64,000 nucleotides of DNA from Arthrobacter hankyongi (lineage in GTDB: Bacteria > Actinomycetota > Actinomycetes > Actinomycetales > Micrococcaceae). The stretch is from assembly GCF_022012395.1 (NCBI RefSeq), contig NZ_JAKLTQ010000001.1:558001-622000 (forward strand). The letters are read 5' to 3'. The notes beneath the pieces were generated by a model. It did not search any database. It was not told the DNA's origin and worked only from the letters and a program-made list of their open reading frames with translations. Position numbers and translations under genes: made by a program. Shown here piece after piece: positions 33,498 to 52,507 of this stretch (position 1 is the stretch's first letter; every line of letters begins with the position of its first letter).

Positions 33498-33510
33498 TTT
33501 ACATTGTAAG
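33498..33510. promoter_or_regulatory. Operator-like palindrome before TetR paralogue 1
   Basis: TTTACATTGTAAG contains TTAC-ATT-GTAA. It matches the CTTACATCGTAAG palindromes found downstream of both TetR paralogues. It lies about 95 bp upstream of this TetR gene and 54 bp upstream of the divergent small gene. Confidence 0.55.
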
Positions 33511-33604
33511 CCTCCAACCTTGGCGTCCTCCGTAAAGAGGCTGGCGTTTCCACTTTTCCGGACCGGGCGTAGGCTGGACGGCAAGCCTGAGGGAGGCACG
33601 GAAC

Positions 33605-34318
33605 ATGCTCGAATCCAATCCAAGCCCCGGGCCGGAGCCGGACCGCGCGGGTCCCGAAAAACCCCGGCTGGAGCGGCAGCGGATCCTCCAGGCCGGCGTG
33701 GACTTCATCGAGCAGCACGGCGCCCGGCAACTGACCATGCGGCGGCTGGGCTCCGCACTCGGCGTCGAAGCGATGTCGCTGTACCGCTACGTCCCCTCGC
33801 GCGAAAGCCTGCTCGACGGCATTGTCGAGACGGTCATCGACGAGCTCTACGGTGATCCCGAAGTCTACGTGGAACCGCGCCACGGCTGGCAGGACTACCT
33901 GCTGCGCCTGGCCCACGGCCTGCGCCGCCTGGCATTGAAGCACCCCCAGGTCTTCCCGTTAGTGGCCACCCGGCCCACCGAGGCACCGTGGGTGCGGCCG
34001 CCGCTGCGCAGCCTGCGCTGGGTTGAATCTTTCCTGGCGGCCCTGACCTCGTCAGGCTTCTCCGACCGCGCGGCAGTGGCCACCTACCGGGCTTTCAGCA
34101 GCTTCCTGCTCGGCCACCTGCTGTTGGAAGTCGCAGCCCTGGGTGCCGACGTCGGCCCGGTCGAGGAGGCCGACCCCCACCCTCCGGCAAGCGCGGACTT
34201 GGACGGCTATCCCCTGCTGCAGCAACTGCAGGACCTGCTCTCCGAGGACCGCTCGGCACAGGAGTTCGAGGAATCCCTGGAAAACCTGATGGACCGGCTG
34301 GAAGCCCTCGCACCCTGA
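33605..34318 (+). CDS. TetR family regulator (TetR_C_1 type), paralogue 1
   Basis: A 237-residue TetR-type repressor with helix-turn-helix RRLGSALGVEAMSLYRYVPSRESLLDGI (about residues 43-72) and a long ligand domain. The hydrophobic middle includes LVATRPTEAPWVRPPLRSLRW and ends with an acidic tail LLSEDRSAQEFEESLENL. GGAGG lies upstream of the ATG. A close paralogue lies near 51.7 kb with the same tail. The family of Tet-like C-terminal domains responds to small molecules; the ligand is unknown. Confidence 0.92.
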   Translation: MLESNPSPGPEPDRAGPEKPRLERQRILQAGVDFIEQHGARQLTMRRLGSALGVEAMSLYRYVPSRESLLDGIVETVIDELYGDPEVYVEPRHGWQDYLLRLAHGLRRLALKHPQVFPLVATRPTEAPWVRPPLRSLRWVESFLAALTSSGFSDRAAVATYRAFSSFLLGHLLLEVAALGADVGPVEEADPHPPASADLDGYPLLQQLQDLLSEDRSAQEFEESLENLMDRLEALAP

Positions 34319-34382
34319 GCCCGGCGACGCAATCCCCGGCGCGCAACACGCCCGGTGGGGATTTAAGCTTGGCACACAGATA

Positions 34383-34412
34383 CTAAGCATGCTTTTCTTA
34401 CATCGTAAGCAA
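34383..34412. promoter_or_regulatory. Shared 30-bp operator-like element, copy 1
   Basis: AAGCATGCTT (34385-34394) and CTTACATCGTAAG (34397-34409) are two adjacent perfect palindromes. The 30-bp block matches 52478-52507 at 28 of 30 positions. It lies 64 bp upstream of the GNAT-like gene and after TetR paralogue 1. Confidence 0.7.
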
Positions 34413-34476
34413 TCTGATCATGTCGGAGCCCGGCCCCACCCTCCAAAGGGCCGGGGCACAAGATGAGGAGAGATGC

Positions 34477-34878
34477 ATGCCCGTTATCCGCAATAACTTT
34501 GACGAGTCCAAGTTCGACGCGTACGTCGACGGAGCGGTGGCCGGGTCCTTGCATTACCGGATCCTGAACGGCCAGATGTGGCTGCTTGATCTGGTGGTCG
34601 ACGCCGAATACCACGGGTCCCGGTCGTCAGGGTTGAAGGACGCTCTGGTCCAGAAGGCGCTGACCGACGCGCACCGCAGGCGCCTGTCAGTGCTGCCGTT
34701 CTGCCACGAAAGCAGGAAGCATATCGTGTCCCATCCGGCGTACATCCGGCTCGTCCCGTCCACGCAGCGCAAGCGTTTCCTCAAATCCGTCGACTCCCGG
34801 CACCAGACCGGTACCCGCCGGTTCCGGCAGCAATCCGGCGGACGGACAGCGGTCCCGGCTTCGACAGGCGGGCGATGA
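34477..34878 (+). CDS. Small GNAT-like acetyltransferase (YjdJ type)
   Basis: A 133-residue protein resembling the short GNAT-like family PF14542. DAYVDGAVAGSLHYRIL, LLDLVVDAEYHG and LSVLPFCHESRKHIVSHPAY fit the family, but the acetyl-CoA loop, normally GxGxxG/A, reads GSRSSG. About 30 basic residues extend past the domain. GAGGAGAG precedes the chosen ATG. It follows the shared operator-like element, so it is a probable TetR target. Enzymatic activity is uncertain. Confidence 0.7.
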   Translation: MPVIRNNFDESKFDAYVDGAVAGSLHYRILNGQMWLLDLVVDAEYHGSRSSGLKDALVQKALTDAHRRRLSVLPFCHESRKHIVSHPAYIRLVPSTQRKRFLKSVDSRHQTGTRRFRQQSGGRTAVPASTGGR

Positions 34879-34969
34879 GCGGCAAGCCCAAGTTCCGGAC
34901 GCAGCCGGCCCGGGAAACCGCTGCCGGCACACTGTCCGGGGCGATGCCGGCGGCCTGAAGCGCGCGGCA

Positions 34970-35434
34970 GTGGACCGCACCGGGATCCGGCGGACCCGCA
35001 CCGGCCGGGCAGCAGCCCGGCCGGTGCTCGCCGCCGCCATGCTGCTGCTGATTGCCGCCTGCAGCAGCGGGATTTCCGGCCCGCTGGGCAAGTCCGCGGA
35101 CGAAGCCTCGTCCGCGGCGTCGTCGTTGGCGCTCGCGCTGCGGCTCGAGACCAGCGGCCGGGCCACCGCTGCAGTGGCGGAGACTACCGCCGAAAACATG
35201 CTGGACGAGACGGTCAAGGCCTACCAGTCTGCCGCTTCCCAGGAACCCTCCGACGGCACCGAACTGGCCCGGCAGCAGGAGGTGCTGCAGGCCTTGGACC
35301 GCACACTGCACAGCCTGCAGGCGGCCCGGTTGACGCTGGCCGGCGGGAGCGCGGCAGAGCGGGAAGCCGCCGTGCTGGACCTGGAGCACCAGGCCGCCGA
35401 GCTGTCCCGGCTGGGCAAGGAGCTGAAGCCGTGA
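34970..35434 (+). CDS. Small putative lipoprotein
   Basis: A 154-residue protein with an Arg-rich N-terminus, hydrophobic segment PVLAAAMLLLIAAC and a lipobox LIAAC with Cys at about residue 32. The mature part is Ala-rich and helical, with regular Leu/Ala spacing suggesting a coiled coil. A GTG start is used. Its stop overlaps the NRAMP-like gene by 4 bp, so it belongs to that cassette. No family recognised; a periplasmic partner of the transporter is possible. Confidence 0.7.
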   Translation: MDRTGIRRTRTGRAAARPVLAAAMLLLIAACSSGISGPLGKSADEASSAASSLALALRLETSGRATAAVAETTAENMLDETVKAYQSAASQEPSDGTELARQQEVLQALDRTLHSLQAARLTLAGGSAAEREAAVLDLEHQAAELSRLGKELKP

Positions 35435-36660
35435 AGAAGCTGCTCGGCCTGGCACTGGGCATCCTGACCGCCATCGGCGGGTTCGTGGACATTGGCGACC
35501 TGGTCACCAACGCCGTCGTCGGCTCCCGCTTCGGCCTGGGCCTGGTCTGGGTGACGTTGCTCGGCATCGTGGGCATCTGCCTGTTCGCGCAGATGTCCGG
35601 CCGGGTGGCGGCGGTCAGCGGCCGCACTACCTTCGAAATCATCCGCGAGCGGCTCGGCCCGCGCGCCTCGGCGTCGAACCTGGCCGCCTCGTTCCTGATC
35701 AACCTGATGACCCTTACGGCCGAAGTCGGCGGCATCGCACTGACCCTGCAGCTGGCCAGCAGCGTGCACTACCTGGCCTGGGTTCCGGTGGCCGCCGTCG
35801 CCGTCTGGCTGGTGGTCTGGCGGGTGAAGTTCAAGATCCTGGAAAATGTCGCCGGGCTGCTGGGCCTGACCCTGATTGTCTTCGCCGTCGCCCTGTTCAT
35901 GCTGAATCCGGATTGGCCGCAACTGGCCGGCCAGGCGGCCGCGCCCACCGTGCCGGAAGGCGAGGAGCCGGCCACCTACTGGTACTACGCCGTCGCCCTG
36001 TTCGGCGCGGCGATGACCCCGTATGAGGTGTTCTTCTTCTCCTCGGGAGCGGTGGAGGAGAAGTGGACGGTGAAGGACCTGAACCAGTCCCGGGTCAACG
36101 TCCTGGTCGGCTTCCCGCTCGGCGGCCTGCTCTCCATCGCCATTGCGGGCTGTGCCGCCGTCGTGCTGCTTCCGGCGCAGATCGGCGTCACCTCGCTGTC
36201 GCAGGTCGTGCTGCCGGTGGCCCAGGCCGGCGGCAAGCTGGCCCTGGCCTTCGTGCTGGTGGGCATCCTGGCGGCCACCTTCGGTGCGGCGCTGGAGACC
36301 ACGCTCTCCAGCGGCTACACGCTGGCGCAGTACTTCGGCTGGTCCTGGGGCAAATTCCGCCGTCCGGTGCAGGCTGCCCGGTTCCACCTGACCATGATCG
36401 TGGGCCTGCTGATCGGCGTTGCCGTGCTGATGACCGGGGTGGATCCGGTCCAGGTGACCGAATACTCGGTGGTCTTTTCCGCCATCGCGCTGCCGCTGAC
36501 CTACATCCCCATCCTGATCATCGCCAACGACCCGGAATATATGGGCGAACGGGTCAACGGCCGGACCACCAACCTCCTGGGCACGGTGTTCCTGGTGGTC
36601 ATCCTGGCCGCCGCGGTGGCGGCCGTTCCCCTGATGATTGTGACGGGAGCAGGCTCATGA
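35431..36660 (+). CDS. NRAMP-related divalent-metal transporter-like protein
   Basis: A 409-residue protein with about 11 membrane helices and NRAMP-like organisation. In helix 1 the canonical DPGN metal motif reads GFVDIGDLV, and in helix 6 the MPH motif reads MTPYEVFFFSS. These key changes mean manganese/iron specificity cannot be assumed; magnesium-like or other substrates are possible. A GTG start overlaps the lipoprotein stop. It is followed by two overlapping PRC-barrel-type genes. Confidence 0.8.
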   Translation: MKKLLGLALGILTAIGGFVDIGDLVTNAVVGSRFGLGLVWVTLLGIVGICLFAQMSGRVAAVSGRTTFEIIRERLGPRASASNLAASFLINLMTLTAEVGGIALTLQLASSVHYLAWVPVAAVAVWLVVWRVKFKILENVAGLLGLTLIVFAVALFMLNPDWPQLAGQAAAPTVPEGEEPATYWYYAVALFGAAMTPYEVFFFSSGAVEEKWTVKDLNQSRVNVLVGFPLGGLLSIAIAGCAAVVLLPAQIGVTSLSQVVLPVAQAGGKLALAFVLVGILAATFGAALETTLSSGYTLAQYFGWSWGKFRRPVQAARFHLTMIVGLLIGVAVLMTGVDPVQVTEYSVVFSAIALPLTYIPILIIANDPEYMGERVNGRTTNLLGTVFLVVILAAAVAAVPLMIVTGAGS

Positions 36661-37031
36661 CCGGTGGCGGCAAGACCTTCGACGCGGTGCTGCACATCCT
36701 TGACCGGCAGGTGCTGGATGTGGACAAACTGCCGGTCACCGCGGTGGACGACATCGAGCTTTCGGACCTCCCCGAGGGCCCCTTTCCCGACGGCACGCCG
36801 GCGCCGGTGATCACCAACCTGGTGGCCGGGGCGGTACTGGCCACGCGCATGTTCGGCGGCCGGCCGCCGTCGTCGCGGCTGAAGCGGATTGCCTGGCGCC
36901 ATGTGGCGGAACTGGGCACGGTACTGCGGCTGAACATCCACGGCGAGGACCTGGACCTGCTTTGGACCGAACGCTGGGTGCACCGGCATATCATCGGCAG
37001 GATTCCCGGAGGCAGCCATGATCCTCAGTGA
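36657..37031 (+). CDS. PRC-barrel-like protein, first of pair
   Basis: A 124-residue soluble protein. VLDRQVLDVDKLPVTAVDDIEL (about residues 13-34) follows the PRC-barrel beta pattern, in which a property of the barrel is to bind partner domains. The C-terminus has a basic amphipathic stretch (WRHVAELGTVLRLNIH). It overlaps the NRAMP-like gene by 4 bp and the next gene by 14 bp. The function is probably linked to the transporter; no experimental precedent is known to me. Confidence 0.65.
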   Translation: MTGGGKTFDAVLHILDRQVLDVDKLPVTAVDDIELSDLPEGPFPDGTPAPVITNLVAGAVLATRMFGGRPPSSRLKRIAWRHVAELGTVLRLNIHGEDLDLLWTERWVHRHIIGRIPGGSHDPQ

Positions 37032-37359
37032 CCTGCTGGGCCGGGACGTGCTGGACGGGACCGGCGCCAAGGTGGGCAAGGTCACCGACGCGCGGTTCGT
37101 GCTGGACGGCCTCCCGGCCTCCGAAGCCTCGCTCGCGCAGGCCCGGTTGTACGGCTTCCTGGTCAACCCCAGGTTCCACCGAGCCTCCTACCTGGGCTAT
37201 GAGCGCCGAGGCCTGACCGCCCCGTGGCCGATCGGCAGGCTCGAGCGGTGGTGGAGCAGGGGGACCTTCCTGGTCCTCTGGGAGGATGTAGCCGGCATCG
37301 GCGACGACGGCGTGCGGCTGAGGCCGGGCTACACCCGGCGCAGCCCAGTGCTCCCCTAG
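37018..37359 (+). CDS. PRC-barrel domain protein, second of pair
   Basis: A 113-residue protein beginning directly with MILSDLLGRDVLDGTGAKVGKVTDARFVLDG-type PRC-barrel sequence (the GRDV and GKVTDARF strands), then an Arg/Trp-rich C-terminal part. It overlaps the previous gene by 14 bp, so both are likely made from one message with the NRAMP-like transporter and lipoprotein. The partner or regulatory function is unknown. Confidence 0.75.
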   Translation: MILSDLLGRDVLDGTGAKVGKVTDARFVLDGLPASEASLAQARLYGFLVNPRFHRASYLGYERRGLTAPWPIGRLERWWSRGTFLVLWEDVAGIGDDGVRLRPGYTRRSPVLP

Positions 37360-37486
37360 CTCCGGCCCTGCACCCTTCCTGACCGGCACCGGATGTGCGG
37401 GCGCTGTCCGCGCCGCGCAGGCACCGAACGTCGACACTCCCTAGGATGGAAGTGAATCGTACAACCAAGGGGAAGGCGGAGCCGGT

Positions 37487-37504
37487 ATGCCGGCAACACC
37501 ATGA
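37487..37504 (+). CDS. Possible 5-codon leader ORF coupled to the GGDEF-EAL gene
   Basis: ATG CCG GCA ACA CCA TGA reads MPATP. It has GGAG 6 bases upstream, whereas the downstream GGDEF-EAL ATG has no good site of its own and overlaps this stop by ATGA. Ribosomes ending here could restart on the large gene. It is very short, so this is a tentative call. Confidence 0.35.
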   Translation: MPATP

Positions 37505-39867
37505 CGGCTTCGGGACCGGCAGCAGCCCCGGGCCAGCCGGCGACGAGGCCGGGCCGGGCGGCAACTGTGCTGTGCCGCGCGGCAGCCTCCGCCATCGCCG
37601 GCGCCGGGTTGGTGCTGCTGGGACTGGCAGGCCTGCGGACCATCGCCGAGCCGCCGCAGCTGGAGCTGGCCGCGGCAGCCTCGCTGGCCGTGCTGGTGCT
37701 GGCCTGGCAGCTGCGCATGGATACTCCGATCATGCAGCGGCAAAGCACCGTTGCCCTGGGCGCCGCCGTCCTGGTCTGCAACCACCCGGCGGCCCCGTGG
37801 CACCAGCCGCTGGCGGTGTTTGCCGGCGGCATGCTGGCAGCGCTGCTGGTCTTCCGCCGCTGGAAACCGATGGACCTGTACTGGCTCCTGAGCAAGGTGG
37901 CCTCCGCCGCCGTCTTCATCGCCGTGTTCCAGATTCTGCTGGCCGCGCCGGTGTGGTGGCCTGCGGCAGTGACCGCCGCCTGGGCGGCCTACATGGCCGC
38001 CGCCGTTGCCACCGACCGGGTCCTCGCCACCGCCGCCGGCATGCCCGCCACGTTCCGCAACGGCGTCGACGCCAGGTACGCGGCCGGCACCCTCGGCGTG
38101 AACCTGCTGATCTGCCTGGGCGGCTACTACCTCACGGCCCTGCCGCATGCGGCCGCGGACCCGGAACTGCTCGAGGTGCTGTTCCTGACGTCGGTCTGCC
38201 TGCTGGCCCTGGCGGTCACCGGCTGGCTGCGGAACCGGGAACTGCGCCGCAGGCTGACCGGCCTGGTCGGGGCCGCCCGTCAGCTGCCCTGGACCAATGA
38301 GGGGGCCGAGCGGATCCTGCTTGAAGCGGTCAGTGCCTCGGTGCGGGCGGACCAGGTGGCGCTCCGGGACGAGGGGCCCGGGGCCAGGGAAATCGGCGTC
38401 GAAATGGACCGGTGGAACGGATCCGGCGGCTACCTGGTGGCGTCCCGCGCCGGCGGCGCACAATTCGCCGAAGAGGACGAGCAGGTCCTGGACGCGCTGG
38501 CGCATCTGGGCAACGGCATGGTCCGGCAGCGCGAACTGATCAGCGAACTCACCTACCAGGCGGAAACGGACGCACTCACCGGACTGGGCAACCGCCGGAC
38601 CCTGTGGAAGCGGCTGGAGGAAATCAACGCCGGCCGGGACGCCGGCGAGGCGATTGCCGTCGTCTATCTGGATCTGGACGAGTTCAAGGCCGTCAATGAC
38701 CGGTACGGGCACGACGCCGGGGACCAGGTCCTGGTCACCACCGCGCAGCGGATCCGGGCGGCGATCCGCCCCGGGGACGTGGCCGCCCGGATCGGCGGCG
38801 ACGAGTTCGTTGTGGTCCTGCGGCATCTGGCCACCGAGGCCGATGCGCAGGCGGCCGCCATCCGGATCGCCGAAGAGATCGCCCGCCCGATGTGGATAGC
38901 CAATGGCCGGCTGCAGGTGCAGGCCAGCGCCGGCACTGCCTTCTCGGCGCGGCCCGCCGCGGATTTCGAGGAGCTGATGCAGGGCGCAGACTCCCGAATG
39001 TACGCCACCAAGCGGCTCCAGCAGCAGCTACGTGAGGACGGGCTGTCCGGCGCGGAACCTGCCGTGGGCCTCACCGCCGCCGTGGAACGCGGCGTCCGCC
39101 AGGGTCTGCTGCGGGTTGCGCTCCAGCCCGTCATCGCCCTGGATCTGGACGCGATCGTCGGCTTCGAGGCGCTGGTGCGCTACGAGGACGAGCAGCTGGG
39201 CAGTATTCCGGCCGACCGGCTGGTGGCCGAGGCCCGCCGGCTCGGGCTGCTCGACGAGCTCACCGGCCAGGTGATAGACGGCACGCTCGAAGCCATGCGG
39301 GCGGTCACGGCCGTCAGCGCAATCCGCTCAATCTCCCTCAACGTCGAGCTCGGCCAGCTCGAACCGGGCTCGGCGGTGCTGAAGCGGCTGCAGCAACTGC
39401 GCGCCGAGGCACCGGAACTGAACGTCATCGTGGAGCTGACCGAGAACTCGCTCGACACCCTCTCGGACCAGGCGCGCCTGGAACTGGCCTGGCTGCGCCG
39501 GGAGGGCTTCCGCATCGCCGTGGACGATTTCGGCTCGGGCTATTCGTCGATGAATGCCCTGACCGAGTTCGACTTCGACATTGTCAAGGTGGACCGTTCG
39601 CTGATCCGCGAGGACGCCGGCAGTGCCCGGAATATCGTGGTCAGCCACCTGATCTCGATGTTCCGGGCGCTGCAGGTGGATGTGGTGATCGAGGGTGTCG
39701 AGACCGCGCAGACGGTTCAGTGGCTGGCCGGCTGCCACGGCCTGAATGCCCAGGGCTTCTACTTCGGTCGTCCGATGTGGCCCGAGGAGGTCATCGTGCG
39801 GCTGGAGCAGTCCGGGACCGCGGCACTGGCGGATTCGCTGCGCCGCAGTTCCCGGGCGGCCCGGTAG
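37501..39867 (+). CDS. Membrane diguanylate cyclase/phosphodiesterase (GGDEF-EAL)
   Basis: A 788-residue protein. About eight membrane helices fill residues 20-255, followed by a GAF-like region (about 260-345), a GGDEF domain (about 355-520) with intact GGDEF (RIGGDEFVVV, about 430) and an EAL domain (about 530-775). The EAL domain keeps FEALVRYED (about 553), LTENSL, DDFGSGYSS, KVDRSL and EGVET. Both domains look catalytically competent, so it could make and break cyclic-di-GMP in response to an envelope signal. The membrane sensor is not an obvious named domain. Confidence 0.92.
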   Translation: MTASGPAAAPGQPATRPGRAATVLCRAAASAIAGAGLVLLGLAGLRTIAEPPQLELAAAASLAVLVLAWQLRMDTPIMQRQSTVALGAAVLVCNHPAAPWHQPLAVFAGGMLAALLVFRRWKPMDLYWLLSKVASAAVFIAVFQILLAAPVWWPAAVTAAWAAYMAAAVATDRVLATAAGMPATFRNGVDARYAAGTLGVNLLICLGGYYLTALPHAAADPELLEVLFLTSVCLLALAVTGWLRNRELRRRLTGLVGAARQLPWTNEGAERILLEAVSASVRADQVALRDEGPGAREIGVEMDRWNGSGGYLVASRAGGAQFAEEDEQVLDALAHLGNGMVRQRELISELTYQAETDALTGLGNRRTLWKRLEEINAGRDAGEAIAVVYLDLDEFKAVNDRYGHDAGDQVLVTTAQRIRAAIRPGDVAARIGGDEFVVVLRHLATEADAQAAAIRIAEEIARPMWIANGRLQVQASAGTAFSARPAADFEELMQGADSRMYATKRLQQQLREDGLSGAEPAVGLTAAVERGVRQGLLRVALQPVIALDLDAIVGFEALVRYEDEQLGSIPADRLVAEARRLGLLDELTGQVIDGTLEAMRAVTAVSAIRSISLNVELGQLEPGSAVLKRLQQLRAEAPELNVIVELTENSLDTLSDQARLELAWLRREGFRIAVDDFGSGYSSMNALTEFDFDIVKVDRSLIREDAGSARNIVVSHLISMFRALQVDVVIEGVETAQTVQWLAGCHGLNAQGFYFGRPMWPEEVIVRLEQSGTAALADSLRRSSRAAR

Positions 39868-39901
39868 CGGACGGGACCGGGCCCTGCGGACGGGACCGGG
39901 C
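39867..39901. repeat. 16-bp direct repeat after the GGDEF-EAL gene
   Basis: GCGGACGGGACCGGGC occurs at 39867-39882 and 39886-39901, in the 41-bp gap between convergent genes. The origin is probably slippage. Confidence 0.7.
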
Positions 39902-39908
39902 GGCCGGA

Positions 39909-41180
39909 CTAGCCTCGGCTGGAACTCCGGGCGGCCAGCCGGCGCTGCGAGAGGCTGCGGACCCGGGTGCGCAGGGCCACGCCGCTGCGCCGGCTGAGCA
40001 GGACCAGCGCACACAGCCCCGCCAGCAACGGGATGATGCCGCAGACCGCCACGGCCCAGCGGGCTCCGAACTCGGTGCCGATCCAGCCGATCAGCGGAGC
40101 CCCGAACGGCGTACCGCCCTGCATCACCGCCATGTACAGCGCCAGCACCCGGCCCCGGAAGTGCGGCTCGACCGAGAGCTGGATGCTGGTGTTGGCGCTG
40201 TTGAGCGCAGTCAGCATGGCCAGCCCCACGGGGACCAGCGACACCATGTAGAACCAGTAGCCGGGCATCAGGCAGGAGACGATGGCGAAGATCCCGAAAG
40301 CGATCACCCCGCCCACCAGGTACGGCATCCGCGGACCCTTCCGCCGGGCCGCCAGCAGCGCTGCCGCCAGTGTACCCACGGCCATCACGGACCCCAGCAG
40401 CCCGTATTCGCCCGATCCCTTACCGAACACGGAAGTCGCCATCAGCGCATTGGTGATCTGGAAGTTCATACCAAAGGTACCCATCAGCCCGACCAGGACG
40501 AAGATCAGCATCAGGTCCGGCCGGCCGCGCACATACTGCAGGCCTTCGACGACTTGGTGCTTACCTCGTTTGGCGCGTACCGACGGGAACAGTTCGGCCG
40601 TGCGCATCCGCCAGAGGGACAGGATGACGGCGGCGAAGCTGGCGGCGTTGACCAGGAAGGCCGGTCCGGTGCCCAGCCAGGCGATCAACAGCCCGGCCAG
40701 ACCCGGACCCGCGAGCCGGGCCAGGTTGAAGGACGCGGCGTTGAGGGCGACGGCGTTGGGCACGTCCTCCTGTCCGACCACCTCTGAGACGAAGGCCTGG
40801 CGGGCCGGCGCATCGAAGGCGCTGCCGATGCCCAATGCCAGGGCGATGGCGTAGACATGCCACAACTGCGCGGCACCGGTGACTACCAGCAGCCCGAGCA
40901 CCAGGGCGCACAGGCCCATGGCCGTCTGGGTGACGAGCAGCATCCGGCGCTTGGAGTGCCGGTCCGCCATCAGTCCGGCGTACGGGCCAAGGAAGAGGAT
41001 CGGCAGGAACTGCAGGCCGGTGGTGATGCCCACGGCGGTGCCGGAATGGTCCGTCAGCACCGTCAGCACCAGCCAGTCCTGCGCCACCCGCTGCATCCAG
41101 GTGCCCACGTTGGACACCAAGGCGCCGGAGACCCAAAGCCGGTAGTTGCGCACCGCCAAGGCGCGGAAGGTGCTGCTCAT
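39909..41180 (-). CDS. MFS transporter (multidrug/efflux type)
   Basis: A 423-residue major-facilitator protein with 12 predicted helices of the MFS_3/enterobactin-exporter-like class. Motif A-like DRHSKRRML is between helices 2 and 3 and the first helix has NYRLWVSGALVSNVGTWMQ. The C-terminus is an Arg/Ser-rich cytosolic tail. It overlaps the upstream MarR gene by 4 bp, a classic regulator/efflux pair. Substrates are unknown; export of toxic organics is likely. Confidence 0.9.
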   Translation of the reverse strand: MSSTFRALAVRNYRLWVSGALVSNVGTWMQRVAQDWLVLTVLTDHSGTAVGITTGLQFLPILFLGPYAGLMADRHSKRRMLLVTQTAMGLCALVLGLLVVTGAAQLWHVYAIALALGIGSAFDAPARQAFVSEVVGQEDVPNAVALNAASFNLARLAGPGLAGLLIAWLGTGPAFLVNAASFAAVILSLWRMRTAELFPSVRAKRGKHQVVEGLQYVRGRPDLMLIFVLVGLMGTFGMNFQITNALMATSVFGKGSGEYGLLGSVMAVGTLAAALLAARRKGPRMPYLVGGVIAFGIFAIVSCLMPGYWFYMVSLVPVGLAMLTALNSANTSIQLSVEPHFRGRVLALYMAVMQGGTPFGAPLIGWIGTEFGARWAVAVCGIIPLLAGLCALVLLSRRSGVALRTRVRSLSQRRLAARSSSRG

Positions 41181-41632
41181 CTGGCGCTCATCTCCTGCAT
41201 CAGGTGGGCCGCCCGGCTCAGGATCCGGCGGTCGTCGTCGTCGAATTCGGCCAGCCGCCGGGCCAGCCAGGCGGTCCGGTGGCTGCGGGCCTCGGACAGC
41301 ACCGCCTCGCCGGAGCCGGTAATGCGGACCAGGATCTGCCGCCCGTCCGCGGGGTGCGGCTCGCGGGCCACATAGCCCTGCTCCACCAGGCCGTTGACAA
41401 TCCGGGTCATCGACGGCGCCTGCACCTGCTCCCGCTCGGCCAGCTCACGCAGGGTCCGCGGGCCGCCGGTGAGATGGGCCAGGACCGCGTATTGGCCGGG
41501 CGGAACGATATCGCCGCTGGCCTCGGTGCGCAGCCGCCGGGACGTGCGCATCACCGCGATCCGCAGATCCACGGCCAGGACATCGGGCCGGAGAGCATCC
41601 TCCGAGCCTAGGGAAACGGGTTGCACGTTCAT
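41177..41632 (-). CDS. MarR family transcriptional regulator
   Basis: A 151-residue winged-helix repressor. The DNA-binding region is TLRELAEREQVQAPSMTRIVNGLVEQGYV, followed by the wing REPHPADGRQILVRIT. It controls the efflux gene with which it overlaps by 4 bp. The ATG at 41632 has GGGAGG upstream; a longer reading lacks such a site. A strong dyad lies 30 bp upstream. Ligand probably an aromatic acid or drug. Confidence 0.92.
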   Translation of the reverse strand: MNVQPVSLGSEDALRPDVLAVDLRIAVMRTSRRLRTEASGDIVPPGQYAVLAHLTGGPRTLRELAEREQVQAPSMTRIVNGLVEQGYVAREPHPADGRQILVRITGSGEAVLSEARSHRTAWLARRLAEFDDDDRRILSRAAHLMQEMSAR

Positions 41633-44508: not shown

Positions 44509-44547
44509 CAGAGCTTCTCCTCTCGGGTCGGGATTCCGGCCGGCAGG

Positions 44548-45396: not shown

Positions 45397-45506
45397 CTTT
45401 CCTCCCTGTGGTCAGTGGTGCGGCTGACTCTATCCCTTGATCGACGGCGTCGACAGGCCCCGGCCGGTGCCAATTCGCCACCGCGCGCATTTCCCGCAGG
45501 GCCGCC

Positions 45507-45686
45507 ATGGACCTGTTCGCCGATCTGGCGGGCGGCGGGATGACTGTGCGGGCCGTGTCCGGCTCCACGGCGGCGGTACTGACGCCGGAGCTGGTCCGGA
45601 ACGTCTACGGAGTCGACGCGGTGGTGCTCGAGCACCCGGCCACCGGCAGGCCGCTGGTCGCGGTCAGCCCGCTGCCGGCGGCATAG
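45507..45686 (+). pseudogene. 3' remnant of an iron/siderophore ABC transporter ATPase gene
   Basis: The frame reads [19 protein letters not shown], then [20 protein letters not shown] and ends in PAA. This is the characteristic C-terminus of FepC/FecE-type ATPases (the LTPELVRDVYGVDA region). No Walker or signature motifs lie upstream, and only about 60 codons survive. It overlaps the 3' end of cofE on the opposite strand, so it marks a past rearrangement between the nitrilase and cofE operons. Confidence 0.7.
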
Positions 45687-46465
45687 CCGGCGTCGTATCC
45701 CTCCTGCCAGCCCGCGGCCTTCGCCTCCGCCGTCCCGAGCCGGAACATGTCCTGTTCGGCCGGCCGGATCAGCTCCGCGGCCCCGGCCTCCTGCGGCCGG
45801 ACGCCGTCGGCCGGGGCTGCCACCAGCCGCGCCAGCCCGCGCAGCACCGCCACCGGGCAGCCGCTGGTCTTGCCCTTGACCAGGTCCGCCGCCGCGGCAA
45901 CCTCGTCCGCGACCGCCGTCACGGTCGCGCTCAGCCGGCGGCCGGCACTGTCCATGCCGCCGCGCAGGTCCAGCAGCGGCGCCATGCCCGCCACCCCGAT
46001 CGCAGCGTCCGTCTGGCCCCGCCGCCAGGGCCGGCCGAGCGTATCGGTGATGACGACGGCGACATTCACCCCGCAGCGCCGGCCCAGCTCCGCCCGGAGC
46101 CGGCGCGCCGAGGCGTCCGGATCGACCGGCAGCAGCAGGACAGTACCCTTCGGGGTATTGCTGGCATCCACCCCGGCGGCGGCGGCCACAATGCCCAGCC
46201 GGTTCTCCACGATCCGGGTCACCCCGCCGGGATACTCGCGGGTGGCCACCACACGGACGGTTTCGGCCGTGATGGCCTCCTCCCGGTCTGCCGCCGGCAG
46301 CATCCGCCCTTCGGCTTTGGAGACGATCTTCGAGGTGACGGCCAGGATGTCCCCATCCGCCAGATCGTCCCCGCAGGCGACGGCGAGGATGGTGGCCAGA
46401 TCGTCGCCAGCCGATATTTCGCCGATACCTTCGACGGCGAAGACAGTCAGCGCGCGCAGGCTCAC
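45605..46465 (-). CDS. cofE: Coenzyme F420-0:L-glutamate ligase (CofE-like)
   Basis: A 286-residue CofE/FbiB-N-terminal-type enzyme adding gamma-glutamates to F420-0 in F420 synthesis. Family patterns are [18 protein letters not shown] (about 35-52), [26 protein letters not shown] and [21 protein letters not shown] start overlaps the LLM gene stop by 4 bp. The last ~27 residues (after about SGLTATSGL) run antisense through a dead transporter gene and look non-native, so the original C-terminus may have been replaced. The nitroreductase domain of FbiB is absent. Confidence 0.9.
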
Positions 46466-47466
46466 CGGACCAGCCCCGGCAGCACGTGGGCGGCGAAGGC
46501 ATCGATCCACTCGCGCTGGTTGCGCCCCACGTTGTGCAGGTAGATCCGATCGAAGCCCAGGTCCGCGAACTTCTGGATGTAGGCCCGGTGCACATCCGGT
46601 TCCTCGGAAATCACCAGCCGGCCCTCGAAGTCCTCGGGCCGGACAAGTTTGGCCATCTGCTCCATTTCGAAGGGCGAGCGGATATCGCCCTTCGGGAACT
46701 TCATGCCGCCATTGGGCCATTCGGTCAGGGCATTGGCCAGGGCTTCCTCGTAGGTCGGCGCCCAGCTGAGGTGCAACTGCAGCACCTTCGGCATCGCCGA
46801 AGGATCCTTCCCCGCTTCCCGTGCTCCGGCGTCGAACCGGTCGAAGAGCATCGAAACCTTCTCCAGCGGCGCCCCCACCGTGATCAGCCCGTCCGCGTAT
46901 CGGCCCGCCCGCTTGGCCGTGACCGGCCCCGAGGTGGCGACCAGGATTTCCGGCGGCACCTCGGGCATGGTCCACAGCCGGGTGGACTCCATCCTGTAGT
47001 AGGTGCCGTGATGCCGCACGTCCTTGCCGGCCAGGGAGGCGGAGAACAGCTTGGTGATGATCTCGATCGCCTCGAACAGCCGGTTGATCCGCTCCGGCGG
47101 CTCCGGCCAGTACTGGGCCGTGATGTGCTCGTTCAGCGCCTCGCCCGAGCCCAGTCCGAGCCAGTGCCGGCCCGGATACATCGCCGCCAGCGTGGCCGAG
47201 GCCTGCGCCACCATCGCCGGATGCCAGCGGAAGGTGGGGCAGGTGACCCCGGGCCCCATATCGCCCCGGGTCCGCTCGCCGATGGCGGTGAGCACGTTCC
47301 AGACAAAGGCCGACTGTCCCTGGGCCGGAACCCAGGGCTGGAAGTGGTCCGCGGCCATGACACCCGAGAAGCCGCGCTGCTCCGCATACTCGGACAGCGC
47401 CACGGCCTCGCTCGGATGGAACTGCTCCAGCATCGCGGCGTAACCGATGGTCAATGAGGTACCCAT
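46462..47466 (-). CDS. F420-dependent LLM oxidoreductase, G6PDH-related group
   Basis: A 334-residue luciferase-like enzyme of the FGD-related group. [20 protein letters not shown] (about residues 37-56), [17 protein letters not shown] and PILVATSGP-like [16 protein letters not shown] fit F420-dependent dehydrogenases. Its translational coupling to cofE supports F420 as cofactor. The substrate may be a sugar phosphate or an unrelated alcohol; true FGD identity is not proven. Confidence 0.9.
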
Positions 47467-47552
47467 GGCCCAATCCTGCCACCATCATGTGCCGGAATGT
47501 TTGGCTTTTAAGGACGCGAATGCCGCCTGTTCCGGTCGGGTAAATTGACAAT

Positions 47553-48062
47553 ATGGCAACGGAAGACCGCGTTTCCGAGGAATCGAACGGCCGGCACGAG
47601 TCCTTCGAAGAAAAACTGGACCGCAACTGGAACGACCTGCTGCAGGAACTGCGGGTCATGCAGACCGGGGCCCAGATCATCACGGCCTTCCTGATGACGC
47701 TGTCCTTCCAGAATCGGTTCGATGACCTGGAGGCCTACCAGGTGGGCCTGTACATCACCTTGCTGGCCTTCTCGGCCCTGCTCACCGGCCTGATCATGAT
47801 GCCGGTGGCCATCCACCGCCAGCTGTTCGGCCTGCATGTGAAGGATTCCACGGTGGCGCAGGGCCACCGGATCGTCAAGGCCGCGGTCCTGGGCATCGGG
47901 CTGATGGCCACCGGCTGCGTGGCGTTCATCGTGGACGTTGTCGCCGGAGACCGGCCGGCCTTCATCATTGGCGGCATCGTGCTGGCGATCATGCTGGTCA
48001 TGCTCTGGCTGTTGCCCCGGCTGCTCAAGCGCGCCGTCCGGTCCCAGCGGGCAGAGGACTGA
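47553..48062 (+). CDS. DUF6328-type membrane protein
   Basis: A 169-residue protein. A charged N-terminus ([23 protein letters not shown]) precedes four membrane helices, the pattern of DUF6328. The helices lie at about 40-60, 72-92, 105-125 and 133-153. There is no clear ribosome binding site. It is divergent from the LLM/cofE operon. Function unknown. Confidence 0.8.
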
Positions 48063-48201
48063 CCCGCCGGATCCAGGCACAGCCGCAGCACCGGCAATCC
48101 GCATTAGCGCCCACCGCTGGTAGGCGACGTAAAATGCGGGTATCGGCGGTCTTCGGGGCGCGGACAGTTGGTACGCGTCGCCGCCGGTCCAGGGAACAGC
48201 C

Positions 48202-49137
48202 ATGAATTCCACGGTCATCGCCGCCGTCATCATCATCATTGTCGTGATCATCCTGCTGCTGCTGTCTGTCCGGGTCGTAATGCAGTACGAAATGGGCGTC
48301 TTGTTCCGGCTCGGCCGGATCATCGGCACCCGGGATCCCGGCCTGCGGTTGATCATTCCGGTCATCGAGCGGTTGCGGCGGATTTCGCTGCGCGTCGTCA
48401 CGCTGCCGATCCAGTCCCAGGGCATCATCACCCGGGACAACGTCAGCGTGGACATCTCCGCAGTCGCGTATTACCGCGTCATCGACGCGGTCAAATCCGT
48501 GGTGGCCATCGAAAACGTCCAGACGGCCATCGGCCAGATCGCCCAGACCACACTGCGCAAGATTGTCGGCCAGCACACTCTCGACGAGACCCTTGCCGAG
48601 ACGGAGGTGATCAATGCGGACCTGCGCAAGATCCTGGACACCACCACCCTCGAGTGGGGCGTGGAAGTTACCCTCGTTGAGCTGAAGGACATCCAACTGC
48701 CGGACGCCATGAAGCGCGCCATGGCCAAGCAGGCCGAGGCCGAGCGGGAGAAGCGCGCCAAGATCATCGCCGCAGAGGGCGAGGCCCAGGCAGCCGCGGG
48801 GCTGGGGCGTGCCTCGGATACCATGATGGCCCACCCACTGGCCCTGCAGCTGCGCAACCTACAGACCCTGATCGAACTCGGCGTGGACAAGAACTCCACT
48901 GTGGTCTTCCCCGCCCCGCTGATGAGCACCATCACCGAGCTCGGCGCGTTCCTGGCCCGCGAAACCGCGACCGCGGCGGCGGTCGCAGCTGGGGCGCCCG
49001 GCGCCGATCCGGCGGTATCCCCCGCCGGCACCTCCCCGCCGTCCGTCGTCGCCCGCCGGCAACCCGCCCGCAGCGGCCACCAATCCGGCACGGGAGCGGC
49101 AGCAGCGGCGGCTGCAGGACCGCCCCGCACTGGTTAA
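48202..49137 (+). CDS. SPFH/stomatin-like band 7 protein
   Basis: A 311-residue stomatin/prohibitin-family protein. One N-terminal helix (about residues 5-26) is followed by a band 7 domain with QYEMGVLFRLGR, GIITRDNVSVDISAVAYYRV and TLDETLAETEVINADLRKILD, then a coiled-coil AEAEREKRAKIIAAEGEAQAA. The C-terminus is a low-complexity Ala/Pro tail. Such proteins organise membrane microdomains. No NfeD partner is adjacent. Confidence 0.92.
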   Translation: MNSTVIAAVIIIIVVIILLLLSVRVVMQYEMGVLFRLGRIIGTRDPGLRLIIPVIERLRRISLRVVTLPIQSQGIITRDNVSVDISAVAYYRVIDAVKSVVAIENVQTAIGQIAQTTLRKIVGQHTLDETLAETEVINADLRKILDTTTLEWGVEVTLVELKDIQLPDAMKRAMAKQAEAEREKRAKIIAAEGEAQAAAGLGRASDTMMAHPLALQLRNLQTLIELGVDKNSTVVFPAPLMSTITELGAFLARETATAAAVAAGAPGADPAVSPAGTSPPSVVARRQPARSGHQSGTGAAAAAAAGPPRTG

Positions 49138-49158
49138 GGACATCCCTGGCCCACAGCC

Positions 49159-49186
49159 TTGTAATTGAGAACTGTTCTCATATAGA
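49159..49186 (+). promoter_or_regulatory. Zur-box-like operator over the rpmJ promoter
   Basis: TGAGAAC-T-GTTCTCA (49166-49180) is a perfect 15-bp palindrome between TTGTAA (49159-49164) and TATAGA (49181-49186), spaced 16 bp. Actinobacterial Zur sites are AT-rich dyads of this size around TGA...TCA, and the gene downstream encodes a zinc-free ribosomal protein, the classic Zur target. Confidence 0.75.
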
Positions 49187-49239
49187 ATGGTCCCTCCGGG
49201 AAATCGCCGGGCATTCACAACCCGATGGAAGGAAGCATC

Positions 49240-49362
49240 ATGAAGGTACGCAACTCACTGCGCTCGTTGAAGCAGGCCCCCGGCGCCCAACTGGTCCGCC
49301 GCCGCGGCAAGACCCTTGTCATCAACAAGAAGAACCCGCGGCTAAAGGCCCGCCAGGGCTAA
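49240..49362 (+). CDS. rpmJ: 50S ribosomal protein L36, zinc-independent paralogue
   Basis: A 40-residue ribosomal protein beginning [21 protein letters not shown] and ending NPRLKARQG. It is a type B L36 that lacks the CxxC...C..H zinc ligands of the standard form; no cysteine is present. Such C-minus paralogues replace the zinc form during zinc limitation. It is preceded by GGAAG and by a palindromic Zur-like operator. Too short to be found by length-limited gene calling, but the match is clear. Confidence 0.93.
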
Positions 49363-49434
49363 AGGACCTACCCTGCAGCCATAGCTGCGGACCGGCTAGA
49401 CTCGATGCCAGCACCAAGGGACAGGAGTACGGAC

Positions 49435-50130
49435 ATGTCCAGGATCCTGATGGTAGTTTCCGCCGCGGATTCGCTGACCATGAAGGACGGCACCCGGCAC
49501 CCGACCGGCTACTGGGCCGAGGAACTGGCCGTCAGCCACCGCCTGCTGCGTGAGGCCGGCCACAGCATCGACATCGCCACGCCGGGCGGCGCCAAGCCCA
49601 CGGTGGACGCCATCAGCCTGAGCCCGGACACCGTGGGCCGGGACAAGGCCGAGGAACTGGGCGCCTACCTGCGGGAGATCGAGGCGGACCTCGCTTCGCC
49701 GCTGGTCCTGGCCGACGTCGGCGGCGACTACGACGCCATCGTCCTGCCCGGCGGCCACGGCCCCATGGCGGACCTCTACCAGGATCCGGACCTCGGCAGG
49801 ATCCTGCTCGACGCGGACGACGACGGCCTGATCATCGCCCCGTTCTGCCACGGCCCGGCGGGACTGCTCAGCGCAGTGGACAGCGAGGGCAACTGCGGCT
49901 TCGCAGGACGGCGCCTGACCGTCTTCACGAACGAGGAAGAACTGGGCGGTGGAACCGGCGAAAACACGCCCTGGCTGGTCGAATCCGCCCTCCGCGAGAA
50001 GGGCGCCGAGGTCGAGACCGGCCCGGCCTGGACCAGCCATGTGGTGGTGGACGGGAACCTGATCAGCGGCCAGAACCCCCAGTCCAGCGCGGCCGTGGCC
50101 CACAAGGTGCTCGCGGCCCTGGGCGGTTAG
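49435..50130 (+). CDS. DJ-1/PfpI family protein (type 1 glutamine amidotransferase-like)
   Basis: A 231-residue protein of the Hsp31/PfpI class. The nucleophile elbow APFCHGPAGLL has Cys at about residue 138, with DAIVLPGGHGPMADL and GQNPQSS typical of Hsp31-type members. These have glyoxalase-like, deglycase-like or chaperone activities. CAGGAG lies upstream of the ATG at 49435, preferred over a longer start. The methyltransferase gene follows after 5 bp. Confidence 0.9.
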   Translation: MSRILMVVSAADSLTMKDGTRHPTGYWAEELAVSHRLLREAGHSIDIATPGGAKPTVDAISLSPDTVGRDKAEELGAYLREIEADLASPLVLADVGGDYDAIVLPGGHGPMADLYQDPDLGRILLDADDDGLIIAPFCHGPAGLLSAVDSEGNCGFAGRRLTVFTNEEELGGGTGENTPWLVESALREKGAEVETGPAWTSHVVVDGNLISGQNPQSSAAVAHKVLAALGG

Positions 50131-50135
50131 CGGCC

Positions 50136-50771
50136 GTGAGCCTGGGCAGCGCGGTCTTCGCGGCCCTGTACGACGCGTCGTCGCGCCAGGCCGAGGAAAC
50201 CGAACTGGCGCCCCGCCGGGCCGCCCTGCTGTCCGGACTGGCCGGCAGCGTGTTCGACGTCGGTGCGGGCACCGGGGCGAACCTTCCGCATTTTCCGGCC
50301 GCCTGTACGGTCACCGCGGTGGAGCCGGATCCGCACATGCGACGGCGCCTGGCCGCCAAGCTTAATACCGCTGCGGCTACCGTCACGGTTGCCGATGCCA
50401 GCGCGGAGGCGCTGCCCGCACCGGATGCCAGCGTCGACGCCGTCGTCTTCACCCTGGTGCTGTGCACCGTACCCGACCCGGCGGCGGCACTGGCGGAGGC
50501 CGCACGGGTACTGAAGCCGGGCGGGCGGCTGCTCTTCCTCGAACACGTCCGCGGCTCCGGCCGGCACGCGAAGCTGCAGGACTTCGTCCAGCCGCTCTGG
50601 TCCGTCGCAGTTCAGGGCTGCCATCCCAATCGGGACACGCTCACGGCCCTGGCCGCAGCAGGATTCAGCGCTACGGTCCAGGAAGAGTTCGGCGTCGGCC
50701 CGGGCTGGAACCCCGTCAACCCGTTGGTCGTCGGCTCGGCTGTGCCGGACCGGCGGCAGGCCGGTCAGTAG
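50136..50771 (+). CDS. Class I SAM-dependent methyltransferase
   Basis: A 211-residue Rossmann methyltransferase. Motif I is FDVGAGTGANLPHF (about residues 40-53), followed by AVEPDPHMRRRL and the post-I region VFTLVLCTVPDPAAAL. It resembles the small membrane/lipid-type methyltransferase (METTL7-like) group. A GTG start is used 5 bp after the PfpI gene. It converges on and overlaps the stop of a small acidic gene by 7 bp. Substrate unknown. Confidence 0.88.
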   Translation: MSLGSAVFAALYDASSRQAEETELAPRRAALLSGLAGSVFDVGAGTGANLPHFPAACTVTAVEPDPHMRRRLAAKLNTAAATVTVADASAEALPAPDASVDAVVFTLVLCTVPDPAAALAEAARVLKPGGRLLFLEHVRGSGRHAKLQDFVQPLWSVAVQGCHPNRDTLTALAAAGFSATVQEEFGVGPGWNPVNPLVVGSAVPDRRQAGQ

Positions 50772-50971
50772 CCGTAGCCGCCGCTCTCCTCCGCGTTCCT
50801 GGCCTGCGCCGCGCCGTCGACGTTTTCCGAGTCCGGTCCGCCCTCGGCCTCGAGCGGTTCGCCCGTCTCCTCGTCGGCTCCGGCGGCATTCCCGGGGTCC
50901 CTGGGATGCACCGCCTGGTCCTCGAGAAGTTCGTCCGGGGATTCGGTCTGTCCGTTGCCTTCGGTGGTCAT
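50765..50971 (-). CDS. Small acidic hypothetical protein
   Basis: A 68-residue, strongly acidic, low-complexity protein rich in Glu, Asp, Gly and Ala (ends EESGGYGY). AGGAGG precedes the ATG. It is probably disordered. It lies 16 bp downstream of the zinc-ribbon gene, with which it forms a leftward pair. Confidence 0.65.
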   Translation of the reverse strand: MTTEGNGQTESPDELLEDQAVHPRDPGNAAGADEETGEPLEAEGGPDSENVDGAAQARNAEESGGYGY

Positions 50972-50987
50972 GGTGTTCCTCCTGCTG

Positions 50988-51221
50988 TTAGCGCGCCGCC
51001 AGCAGGTCCTTCTGCTGCCGCGACAGTTCGGTCCGGCATCCGCAGTTCAGGCATTCGGAGAAGTAGTGCCTCCGGGTGGTCAGAACCGGAATGAAGAAGA
51101 ATGTCAGCCTTGAGGCCTGCTCCAGCACCTGGTGCGGCCCGGCCACCCGGCAGCGCGGACAGGAGCCGGGCCGGGCAAAAAGGAGCCGCTGGGTCCTCGT
51201 GATGCCGAAAATAACCAGCAT
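50988..51221 (-). CDS. Small zinc-ribbon domain protein
   Basis: A 77-residue protein with two CxxC-type knuckles: SCPRCR (about residues 20-25) and ECLNCGC (about 56-62). The hydrophobic stretch RLTFFFIPVLTT links them, as in the small zinc-ribbon family related to YnfU. It probably binds one zinc and acts as an adapter. It is 16 bp upstream of the acidic small gene on the same strand. Confidence 0.8.
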   Translation of the reverse strand: MLVIFGITRTQRLLFARPGSCPRCRVAGPHQVLEQASRLTFFFIPVLTTRRHYFSECLNCGCRTELSRQQKDLLAAR

Positions 51222-51251
51222 CGTCGCCCCGCCAGGATCCCGGCCGGTGGG

Positions 51252-51479
51252 CTAGAGGCCCATCCCGCCCAGCTTGTCCCCCAGGCCGCCCAGTTTCTCG
51301 CCCAGGCCGCCAGGAAGCTTGTCGAGCAGGTCATTGACGTTGATGCCCAGGTTCGAGAGCAGCCCCGAATCGCGCTCGGTATCCACCTGCTGGGGCAGTT
51401 CCGATTCCGCCTGCGATGCCTTGTCGCCCTGCCCCATGGACTTGAGGATGTCGATGATCTGCTGCTTGTCGATCTGCAT
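51252..51479 (-). CDS. Small hypothetical protein with Gly-rich tail
   Basis: A 75-residue protein: a short helical head MQIDKQQIIDILKSMGQGDK, an acidic linker and a repeat-like tail LPGGLGEKLGGLGDKLGG. The ATG has GGGAGA upstream. It resembles small actinobacterial proteins of unknown function. It may belong to the same transcript as the zinc-ribbon gene, 30 bp downstream. Confidence 0.65.
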   Translation of the reverse strand: MQIDKQQIIDILKSMGQGDKASQAESELPQQVDTERDSGLLSNLGINVNDLLDKLPGGLGEKLGGLGDKLGGMGL

Positions 51480-51564
51480 GAGGATTCTCCCTTGCTTGTC
51501 CCGATATCCTGCCCGCGATGGCAACCGCGGGTAAGTGTGCTGCCTGCTGCCCGGCCGCAAAGCC

Positions 51565-51574
51565 AAGCATGCTT
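51565..51574. promoter_or_regulatory. AAGCATGCTT palindrome upstream of TetR paralogue 2
   Basis: The same 10-bp palindrome found in both 30-bp elements, here followed by AC and lying 114 bp upstream of the second TetR gene. The companion CTTACATCGTAAG palindrome is absent. Autoregulation is possible. Confidence 0.45.
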
Positions 51575-51687
51575 ACCACTGTCCCCGAACGCACGCCGGG
51601 GAACAAGCCCCGCCGGCAGAACCGTCGATTGGCACCGCCGACGGCGGTGCGTAGGCTGAGGGGCGTTAGCTCACGGAGGGAACTTTC

Positions 51688-52401
51688 ATGCGAGAGTCCG
51701 GAAGTAAGGCAACACAAATCCACACCCATCAGCCTTCAGGCAAAACCAAGCTGGACCGGCGCACCATCCTCGAAGCAGGCGCCGACTTTATCGACCAACA
51801 TGGCGTGCGGGAACTTTCCATGCGCCGGCTGGGGGCGGCCCTGGGCGTCGAGGCGATGTCCCTCTACCGGCACGTACCATCGCGGGAAAACCTGCTGGAC
51901 GGGATTGTGGAGCTGATCATGGACCAGCTCTACGGCGATCCCGAGGTGTACCTGGAACCGCGGAACGGCTGGCAGGACTATTTGTTCCGGCTGGCCCACG
52001 GCCTGCGGCGGATGGCGCTGGCACATCCCCGGATCTTCCCCCTGGTGGCCACCCGGCCCCCAGAAGCACCGTGGGTGCGCCCGCCGCTGCGGAGCCTGCG
52101 CTGGATCGACTCCTTCCTCGGCGCACTGACCTCCTCCGGCTTCCGCCCCGAGGCGGCCGTCGCCGCTTACCGGGCATTCAGCAGCTTCCTGTTGGGCCAC
52201 CTGCTCCTGGAAGTGGCGGCCCTGGGCGCCGAAATCGGCCCGGTCGAGACTGATGACGGGCAGGCGCAGGAAACCGGTGACCTCAGCGAATACCCGCAGG
52301 TCCTGCAGCTGCAGGACCTGCTGTCCGAGGACCGGTCTGCGGACGAGTTCGAGGAGTCCCTGGAGAATTTGCTGGAGCGCCTCGGCACCTTGATTCGGTA
52401 G
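51688..52401 (+). CDS. TetR family regulator (TetR_C_1 type), paralogue 2
   Basis: A 237-residue repressor, the same length as the paralogue near 33.6 kb and sharing long blocks, including RRLGAALGVEAMSLYRHVPSREN, LVATRPPEAPWVRPP and the tail QLQDLLSEDRSADEFEESLENLL. GGAGGG lies upstream of the ATG. Downstream is the shared 30-bp element, then a rightward run of membrane and stress-type genes. It probably represses that set. Ligand unknown. Confidence 0.92.
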   Translation: MRESGSKATQIHTHQPSGKTKLDRRTILEAGADFIDQHGVRELSMRRLGAALGVEAMSLYRHVPSRENLLDGIVELIMDQLYGDPEVYLEPRNGWQDYLFRLAHGLRRMALAHPRIFPLVATRPPEAPWVRPPLRSLRWIDSFLGALTSSGFRPEAAVAAYRAFSSFLLGHLLLEVAALGAEIGPVETDDGQAQETGDLSEYPQVLQLQDLLSEDRSADEFEESLENLLERLGTLIR

Positions 52402-52477
52402 CGAGCCGCACCCCAGATCCGCCGCGCGGCACCTGCCCACCACATATCCCCACGAAACGCAACGTTGCACCGAGATG

Positions 52478-52507
52478 CTAAGCATGCTTTGCTTACATCG
52501 TAAACAA
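52478..52507. promoter_or_regulatory. Shared 30-bp operator-like element, copy 2
   Basis: AAGCATGCTT (52480-52489) and CTTACATCGTAAA (52492-52504) lie side by side. Identity with the element at 34383-34412 is 28 of 30. It is 71 bp upstream of the next gene. Surrounding non-coding sequence is much less conserved, which argues for selection. Confidence 0.7.

Follow-up and report, generated by a model that had tools for sequence, protein, structure and literature searches.

Predicted composite promoter regions with two abutting operators beside paralogous TetR genes of Arthrobacter hankyongi

Promoters in which operators for two different regulators abut are of a known general kind. Repressors with the Pfam domains TetR_N and TetR_C_1 share both this domain pair and a short inverted-repeat site by their own gene with the locus described here, a 64,000-nucleotide stretch of the 5.19 Mb genome of Arthrobacter hankyongi (NCBI RefSeq assembly GCF_022012395.1, contig NZ_JAKLTQ010000001.1, positions 558,001 to 622,000; hereafter the window). 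Two 30-bp elements in this window are each flanked by a TetR gene and by the gene set that comes after it. The solved relatives of the two TetR proteins, judged by sequence, include tetracycline repressors, SimReg2 and ActR, and even the best of them is distant (3bqy, E 4.6e-18). For the genes that follow the second element, the closest described system is found in Actinoplanes, where producing sigma-H is reported to increase transcripts of YihY, holin-X and DUF3618 genes, whose promoters have GTTT and GGGTA boxes (PMC11205660); these families thus appear as a stress set elsewhere, under different promoter letters. In the open-licence PubMed Central literature, taken at the level of titles and the starts of abstracts, no paper on the motifs described below in actinobacteria was apparent.

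The elements lie at 34383-34412 and 52478-52507, about 18 kb apart, and are identical at 28 of 30 bases, position and likeness both as described in the initial annotation. Each consists of a left palindrome, which we call O1 (CTAAGCATGCTTA-like, TAAGCATGCTTA), and a right palindrome, O2 (CTTAC-NNN-GTAAG). The earlier description of two perfect palindromes per element holds for the first copy but not for the second, in which the right palindrome has 4-base arms only (TTACATCGTAA, then A, not G).

33498..33511, + strand: O2-type site TTTACATTGTAAGC, between TetR1 and a divergent small open reading frame (ORF)
33605..34318, + strand: TetR1, 237 aa, Pfam TetR_N + TetR_C_1
34383..34395, + strand: O1, CTAAGCATGCTTT, left half of element 1, upstream of the GNAT gene
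34397..34409, + strand: O2, CTTACATCGTAAG, proposed TetR operator, right half of element 1
51563..51575, + strand: O1-type site CCAAGCATGCTTA, between TetR2 and a divergent small ORF (AAGCATGCTT at 51565-51574)
51688..52401, + strand: TetR2, 237 aa, 75% identical to TetR1 over 217 aa, Pfam TetR_N + TetR_C_1
52478..52490, + strand: O1, CTAAGCATGCTTT, left half of element 2
52492..52505, + strand: O2, CTTACATCGTAAAC, right half of element 2, right arm GTAAA

We consider, with a probability of about 0.72, that each 30-bp element would be a composite promoter control region, in which two abutting operators serve two different regulators. As had been noticed, each element is preceded by one of two TetR genes of equal length, and both proteins score above the Pfam cut-offs for TetR_N and TetR_C_1. 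The partial sites reported at 33498 and 51565 are indeed present before the TetR genes, but they are of different types, O2 at the former and O1 at the latter, which rules out one common motif for the two. An operator-type palindrome of the O2 kind thus stands before TetR1, and this site is probably where TetR1 regulates itself; at TetR2 the upstream site is O1 only, with O2 on the downstream side, and TTACNNNGTAA is not present in the region of the O1-type site before it.

As a unit the element is rare. In the window the pattern CTAAGCATGCTTTNCTTACATCGTAARCAA, which was derived from these same two copies, matches at exactly two places with up to 3 mismatches allowed (shuffle mean 0.00, n=100). 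In the whole genome, exact AAGCATGCTTN{0,20}CTTAC and AAGCATGCTTNNCTTACNNNGTAA with up to 2 mismatches were found only at the two element places, and the motif search gave no third copy of the 30-bp element.

Its left half, by contrast with the whole, recurs. CTAAGCATRCTTA occurs within 1 mismatch at 10 distinct places of the genome (12 strand matches vs 0 for the reversed control), three in the window and seven elsewhere:

C5:36670, O1 before a second YihY run
C5:32251, O1 before a small ORF like that at 33235
C1:212863 and C45:107636, O1 before Transgly_assoc-like genes (the latter just under the Pfam cut-off)
C34:225631, O1 before CsbD
C45:104295, O1 before a polyketide-cyclase-fold protein
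C12:444287, O1 without a clear target

The second YihY run (G000:C5:33585-36517, L140, G000 being this genome) contains a relative of the window gene at 54076, has a perfect TAAGCATGCTTA and no O2 in front, and is followed by holin-X-like and DUF3618-like genes, as judged by eye. The small ORF resembling the one at 33235 (also by eye) lies at G000:C5:31947-32174 and has its own O1-like site.

Within the family, TAAGCATRCTTA is found in 32 of 120 genomes, belonging to 12 of 32 Micrococcaceae genera. We read 91 O1 sites among the matches listed (leaving out G040:C5:1314020 and the own-genome site). None lies inside a called gene, where 69 would be expected from a coding fraction of 76%, and 81 lie at most 300 bp 5' of a start, a placement shared by 31% of random positions. 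The genes near O1 fall into recurrent families, with counts that are not independent as many sites are orthologous: GlsB/YeaQ-like (Transgly_assoc) 14, short-chain dehydrogenase 9, relatives of the 54076 gene 7 and PRC/DUF2382 6, followed by DUF1508, a sigma factor, YihY, an iron-containing redox enzyme and two unnamed families (3 each), and Mn catalase, GNAT and one unnamed family (2 each). General-stress and envelope genes thus occur among the O1 targets, represented by Transgly_assoc, CsbD, YihY, DUF2382, DUF1508, Mn catalase, DUF892 and a sigma factor. In three congeners (L223, L237, L171) O1 lies 62-66 bases before the start of a sigma-70-type factor gene, so that a sigma factor serving the O1 genes may itself be among them. 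A search for autoregulation among the O1-adjacent genes revealed no recurrent repressor; the regulator genes near O1 are single MarR-like genes, one PaaX-like gene (by eye) and the three sigma genes.

The right half has a distribution of its own, and it follows TetR. Among the best 80 of 172 relatives found with the TetR1 protein, all actinobacterial loci, 42 carry TTACNNNGTAA no more than 450 bp upstream of the TetR match. Control windows from these loci contain it in 19 of 1472 cases, and seven palindromes of the same composition and two other spacings used as decoys gave 0/80 upstream. The motif is present at 6 of the 7 Arthrobacter loci (L009-L015) and at 36 of the 73 loci outside them. 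In L016-L088, with starts from our own gene caller, 68 of 71 O2 sites lie 5' of a called start. The genes so fronted are TetR (31 loci), PRC/DUF2382 (14), MscS-like (10), CsbD (8), an FGGV membrane protein (5), holin-X (2), Asp23-like (2), a 54076-like gene (1), YihY (1) and others (23), and at least one such envelope-stress gene is near TetR in 51 of 73 loci. A search blind to TetR led to the same proteins: 20 of the 25 loci from other genomes found by the motif alone, one per genome and about 3 kb each, hold a TetR1 homologue (27-60% identity), and O2 therefore seems to be the predicted operator type of a broad TetR subfamily, beyond the orthologues of this locus. In several relatives (L018, L019, L041, L045, L050, L053, L058, L081, L082, L086, L087) O2 sites are paired 14-34 bases apart, suggesting paired TetR dimers. 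Two further occurrences concern the genome itself. A lone perfect O2 palindrome, CTTACACTGTAAG, at G000:C22:25219 is on a contig with small genes of plasmid-like appearance (by eye), with no TetR noticed nearby; an O2-like site at G000:C16:15551, with CTAAGCATACT close by, was dropped because the called genes on either side both have their 3' end towards it.

The two halves meet in one genus. The composite AAGCATGCTTNNCTTACNNNGTAA is present in 10/10 genomes of the genus, at 14 exact places and always with the same 2-base spacing; an extra place with 2 mismatches, in G002, looks like chance. With a looser pattern, 395 family genomes returned the same 10 and 6 others, all from genus g9. In these six the downstream gene appears to be of the type found at 52578 in the window (YRCACG in 5/6 starts, HCRTPM in the sixth) and O1 is intact; the left arm of O2 is short of one letter in 5/6 (TTATGGGGTAA). 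No TetR at E<=1e-40 was found in the g9 genomes of the 120-genome sample, to which the six composite-bearing genomes do not belong.

Three genomes hold two composites and two TetR genes (G000, G005, G009). G006 has two composites and a single TetR at E<=1e-40, although with 110 contigs a gap is possible; one of its composites precedes GNAT and the other, by eye, an orthologue of the 52578 gene as well as a short PRC-like gene without a Pfam match. If the second O2 of G006 is functional, it would have to be regulated in trans by the one TetR. The shared regulon with cross-talk that had been proposed for the paralogues is supported in this way, and cross-regulation between them is plausible. A division of labour by operator letters (GTAAGC at TetR1 and GTAAAC at TetR2 promoters, in G000 and G009) was considered and given up, because GTAAAC persists in G006 in the absence of a second close TetR and the cases are too few.

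How could such a composite work? The sequences themselves show the two motifs, how each is distributed, that they stand upstream of genes and which target families recur; TetR binding, repression and cross-binding by the paralogues are inferred, as are the promoter boxes of the window and what the O1 factor is and in which sense it acts. O2 would be the binding site of a TetR1 or TetR2 dimer, the helix-turn-helix segments of the two proteins being nearly alike (VEAMSLYRYVPSRESLLDGIVE and VEAMSLYRHVPSRENLLDGIVE, respectively). When the 81 O1 sites are oriented to the nearest gene, their profile has AT at both outer edges (ATNNTAAGYATGCTTANNAT) and a weak TTGCC about 14 bases before O1. Taking TTGCC(N) and TANNAT as the -35-like and -10-like boxes, the spacer would measure 18 bases, and O1 would lie between the boxes and overlap the -10. 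In the composites, O2 would then cover the expected start region, a usual place for a repressor, and TetR could repress by occupying the DNA just downstream of the -10. O1 would be read by another factor, one acting on a set of general-stress and envelope genes in some of the Micrococcaceae. Double control would thereby apply to GNAT and to the run from 52578 through YihY and holin-X to DUF3618 (perhaps also PRC-barrel), with wide stress as the input at O1 and the TetR ligand as the input at O2. TetR1 also has a lone O2 in front of both its gene and the divergent small ORF. As for the wider picture, we see an even chance that TAAGCATGCTTA is the operator of an undescribed Micrococcaceae master regulator of general-stress and envelope genes, and that in one genus two of the promoters under this regulator have acquired a TetR input by way of an abutting second operator, giving two-input control.

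Another explanation, which we regard as unlikely, is that O1 is the core promoter of an alternative stress sigma factor and its palindrome a by-product of the -10 region. The O1 targets do resemble a stress-sigma regulon, including a sigma gene in three congeners, and the Actinoplanes YihY, holin-X and DUF3618 genes are reported to rise with sigma-H (PMC11205660). There is also a weak orientation bias among the 57 O1 sites with a single target (TAAGTATGCTTA 17 vs TAAGCATACTTA 7, symmetric 33). However, O1 is palindromic out to AT at both ends, and the GTTT-GGGTA promoter given for sigma-H in that source is unlike it; the profile of the 81 sites, which shows TTGCC and TANNAT, has no GGGTA column and thus lacks the GTTT/GGGTA boxes.

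Somewhat less probable still is the initial proposal that the 30 bp form one extended TetR operator, with two dimers side by side on O1 and O2 and a single cross-talking regulon of the paralogues. Half-site letters common to O1 and O2, the 2-base spacing kept in 10/10 congeners, the occurrence of each half alone at one of the TetR genes and the two elements retained by G006 with one close TetR would all suit it. The link to TetR and the regulatory look of the element stand, but not its unity, because O1 and O2 are distributed separately: O2 without O1 is found at 9 of 10 TetR loci of other Micrococcaceae genera (about 3.6 kb each; O1 in 0), and O1 is present in just one, G036, of the ten genomes with such a TetR that lie outside the genus. 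Furthermore, the half-sites of O1 and O2 are oppositely directed and differently spaced. O1 is also frequent without a close TetR (25 of 32 O1 genomes have none at E<=1e-40, and 16 of 120 family genomes have one, in a search that scored at most 23 candidates per genome at this strict cut-off).

A mere trace of duplication of a TetR gene with its 3' flank, leaving the element unconstrained, is very improbable as the sole cause: the paralogous TetR genes (75% identity) do have the element at the same place after each, and the element regions are probably of common descent, since the likeness of their 3' flanks (47 identical of 79 columns) was equalled in 0/500 shuffles, but those flanks and the 5' ones (41 identical of 81 aligned columns, score equalled in 99/500 shuffles) are, as first noted, much less conserved than the element with its 28/30, which is kept in 10/10 congeners, and common descent and constraint are compatible.

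Several points weigh against the composite reading itself. The half-sites of O1 and O2 have letters in common (TAAGCA / GTAAGCA), and a single protein might therefore contact the two. The two window promoters have TTTCTT and TTGCTT at the -10 position, which are poor boxes, and a scan for consensus sigma-70 promoters found nothing at either. The limits of the family TetR search, just given, count here too. For O1, the summed family matches (157 on both strands vs 14 for the reversed pattern) include symmetric sites counted on both strands, and the reversed control does not keep dinucleotides. No target was assigned to 10 of the 91 sites; singletons, CsbD and DUF892 among them, make up about 45 of roughly 105 target genes, and besides the orthology of many sites, some of the genes are merely divergent neighbours. 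For O2, exact TTACNNNGTAA is missing upstream in 38 of the 80 TetR loci. The search with CTTACRNYGTAAG in 119 genomes of the order gave a modest excess (26 genomes matched vs 17 with the reversed control; 46 forward matches vs 19). The genome-wide scan suggested for the element came out differently for its halves, O1 being enriched (7 places vs 0 for the reversed control) and O2 alone not (TTACNNNGTAAG, 7 strand matches vs 8; 4 vs 3 in a second count).

The remaining genes around the two elements are the following.

33235..33444, - strand: divergent small ORF, with homologues beside TetR in congeners
34477..34878, + strand: GNAT-like protein (Pfam Acetyltransf_CG), first gene past element 1
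51252..51479, - strand: divergent small ORF, 75 aa, no Pfam match
52578..52892, + strand: small protein with an HCRRPMQ...YRCACGF motif, no Pfam match, first gene past element 2
52928..54034, + strand: YihY/BrkB family membrane protein
54076..54834, + strand: protein without Pfam match, homologues of which follow O1 sites elsewhere
54837..55286, + strand: actinobacterial holin-X (Phage_holin_3_6)
55283..55903, + strand: DUF3618 protein
56025..56870, + strand: PRC-barrel/DUF2382 protein

Small proteins with the HCR.PM...YRCACGF-like signature (52578-52892 in the window; L257-L262; L119) head O1 promoters in two genera. In four congeners (L009:6287-6613, L010:6297-6635, L013:6263-6652, L014:6304-6627) a small STAS-like protein, by eye an anti-sigma antagonist, comes after the GNAT region. 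The window has no such protein after GNAT; a similar one follows a Transgly_assoc-like gene at G000:C45:108282. In a tree of the TetR proteins, the partner of TetR2 is a G009 protein whose gene likewise precedes YihY, and TetR1 falls among the proteins of the other congeners; support is weak for both placements.

From one oddity of sequence, two testable regulons emerge. One would belong to an actinobacterial TetR with a conserved predicted operator, apparently governing PRC/DUF2382, MscS-like, CsbD, holin-X and YihY genes, which are poorly understood envelope-stress genes. The other is marked by a promoter palindrome common to stress-type genes in part of the Micrococcaceae. The composite promoters, in turn, would be a small natural two-input switch.

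In the literature covered, the sole match of O1 to a binding site that has been shown is SRE1 of the Streptococcus mutans mntH promoter (TTTTAAGCATACTTAACA, containing TAAGCATACTTA), described there as a 6-6-6 motif overlapping the -35 and shown by gel shift to be a site of SloR, a manganese regulator of the DtxR family (PMC12096823). This gives a lead towards a DtxR-type metal regulator as the possible reader of O1, whose targets include Mn catalase; most targets are not known metal genes, and a single site from an unrelated genus may match by chance. With promoters of the abutting-operator kind, the elements described here have in common the two inputs, the two sites and the fixed spacing. 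They differ from the usual arrangement of TetR_C_1-type repressors in that the site often fronts envelope-stress genes in relatives. Finally, the targets overlap with those of the Actinoplanes sigma-H regulon, whose sigma factor has a homologue in Streptomyces, in the YihY, holin-X and DUF3618 families. The sigma-H promoter described there reads GTTT followed by GGGTA about 14-15 bases on (PMC11205660), whereas the element shared by the promoters here is the palindrome TAAGCATGCTTA.

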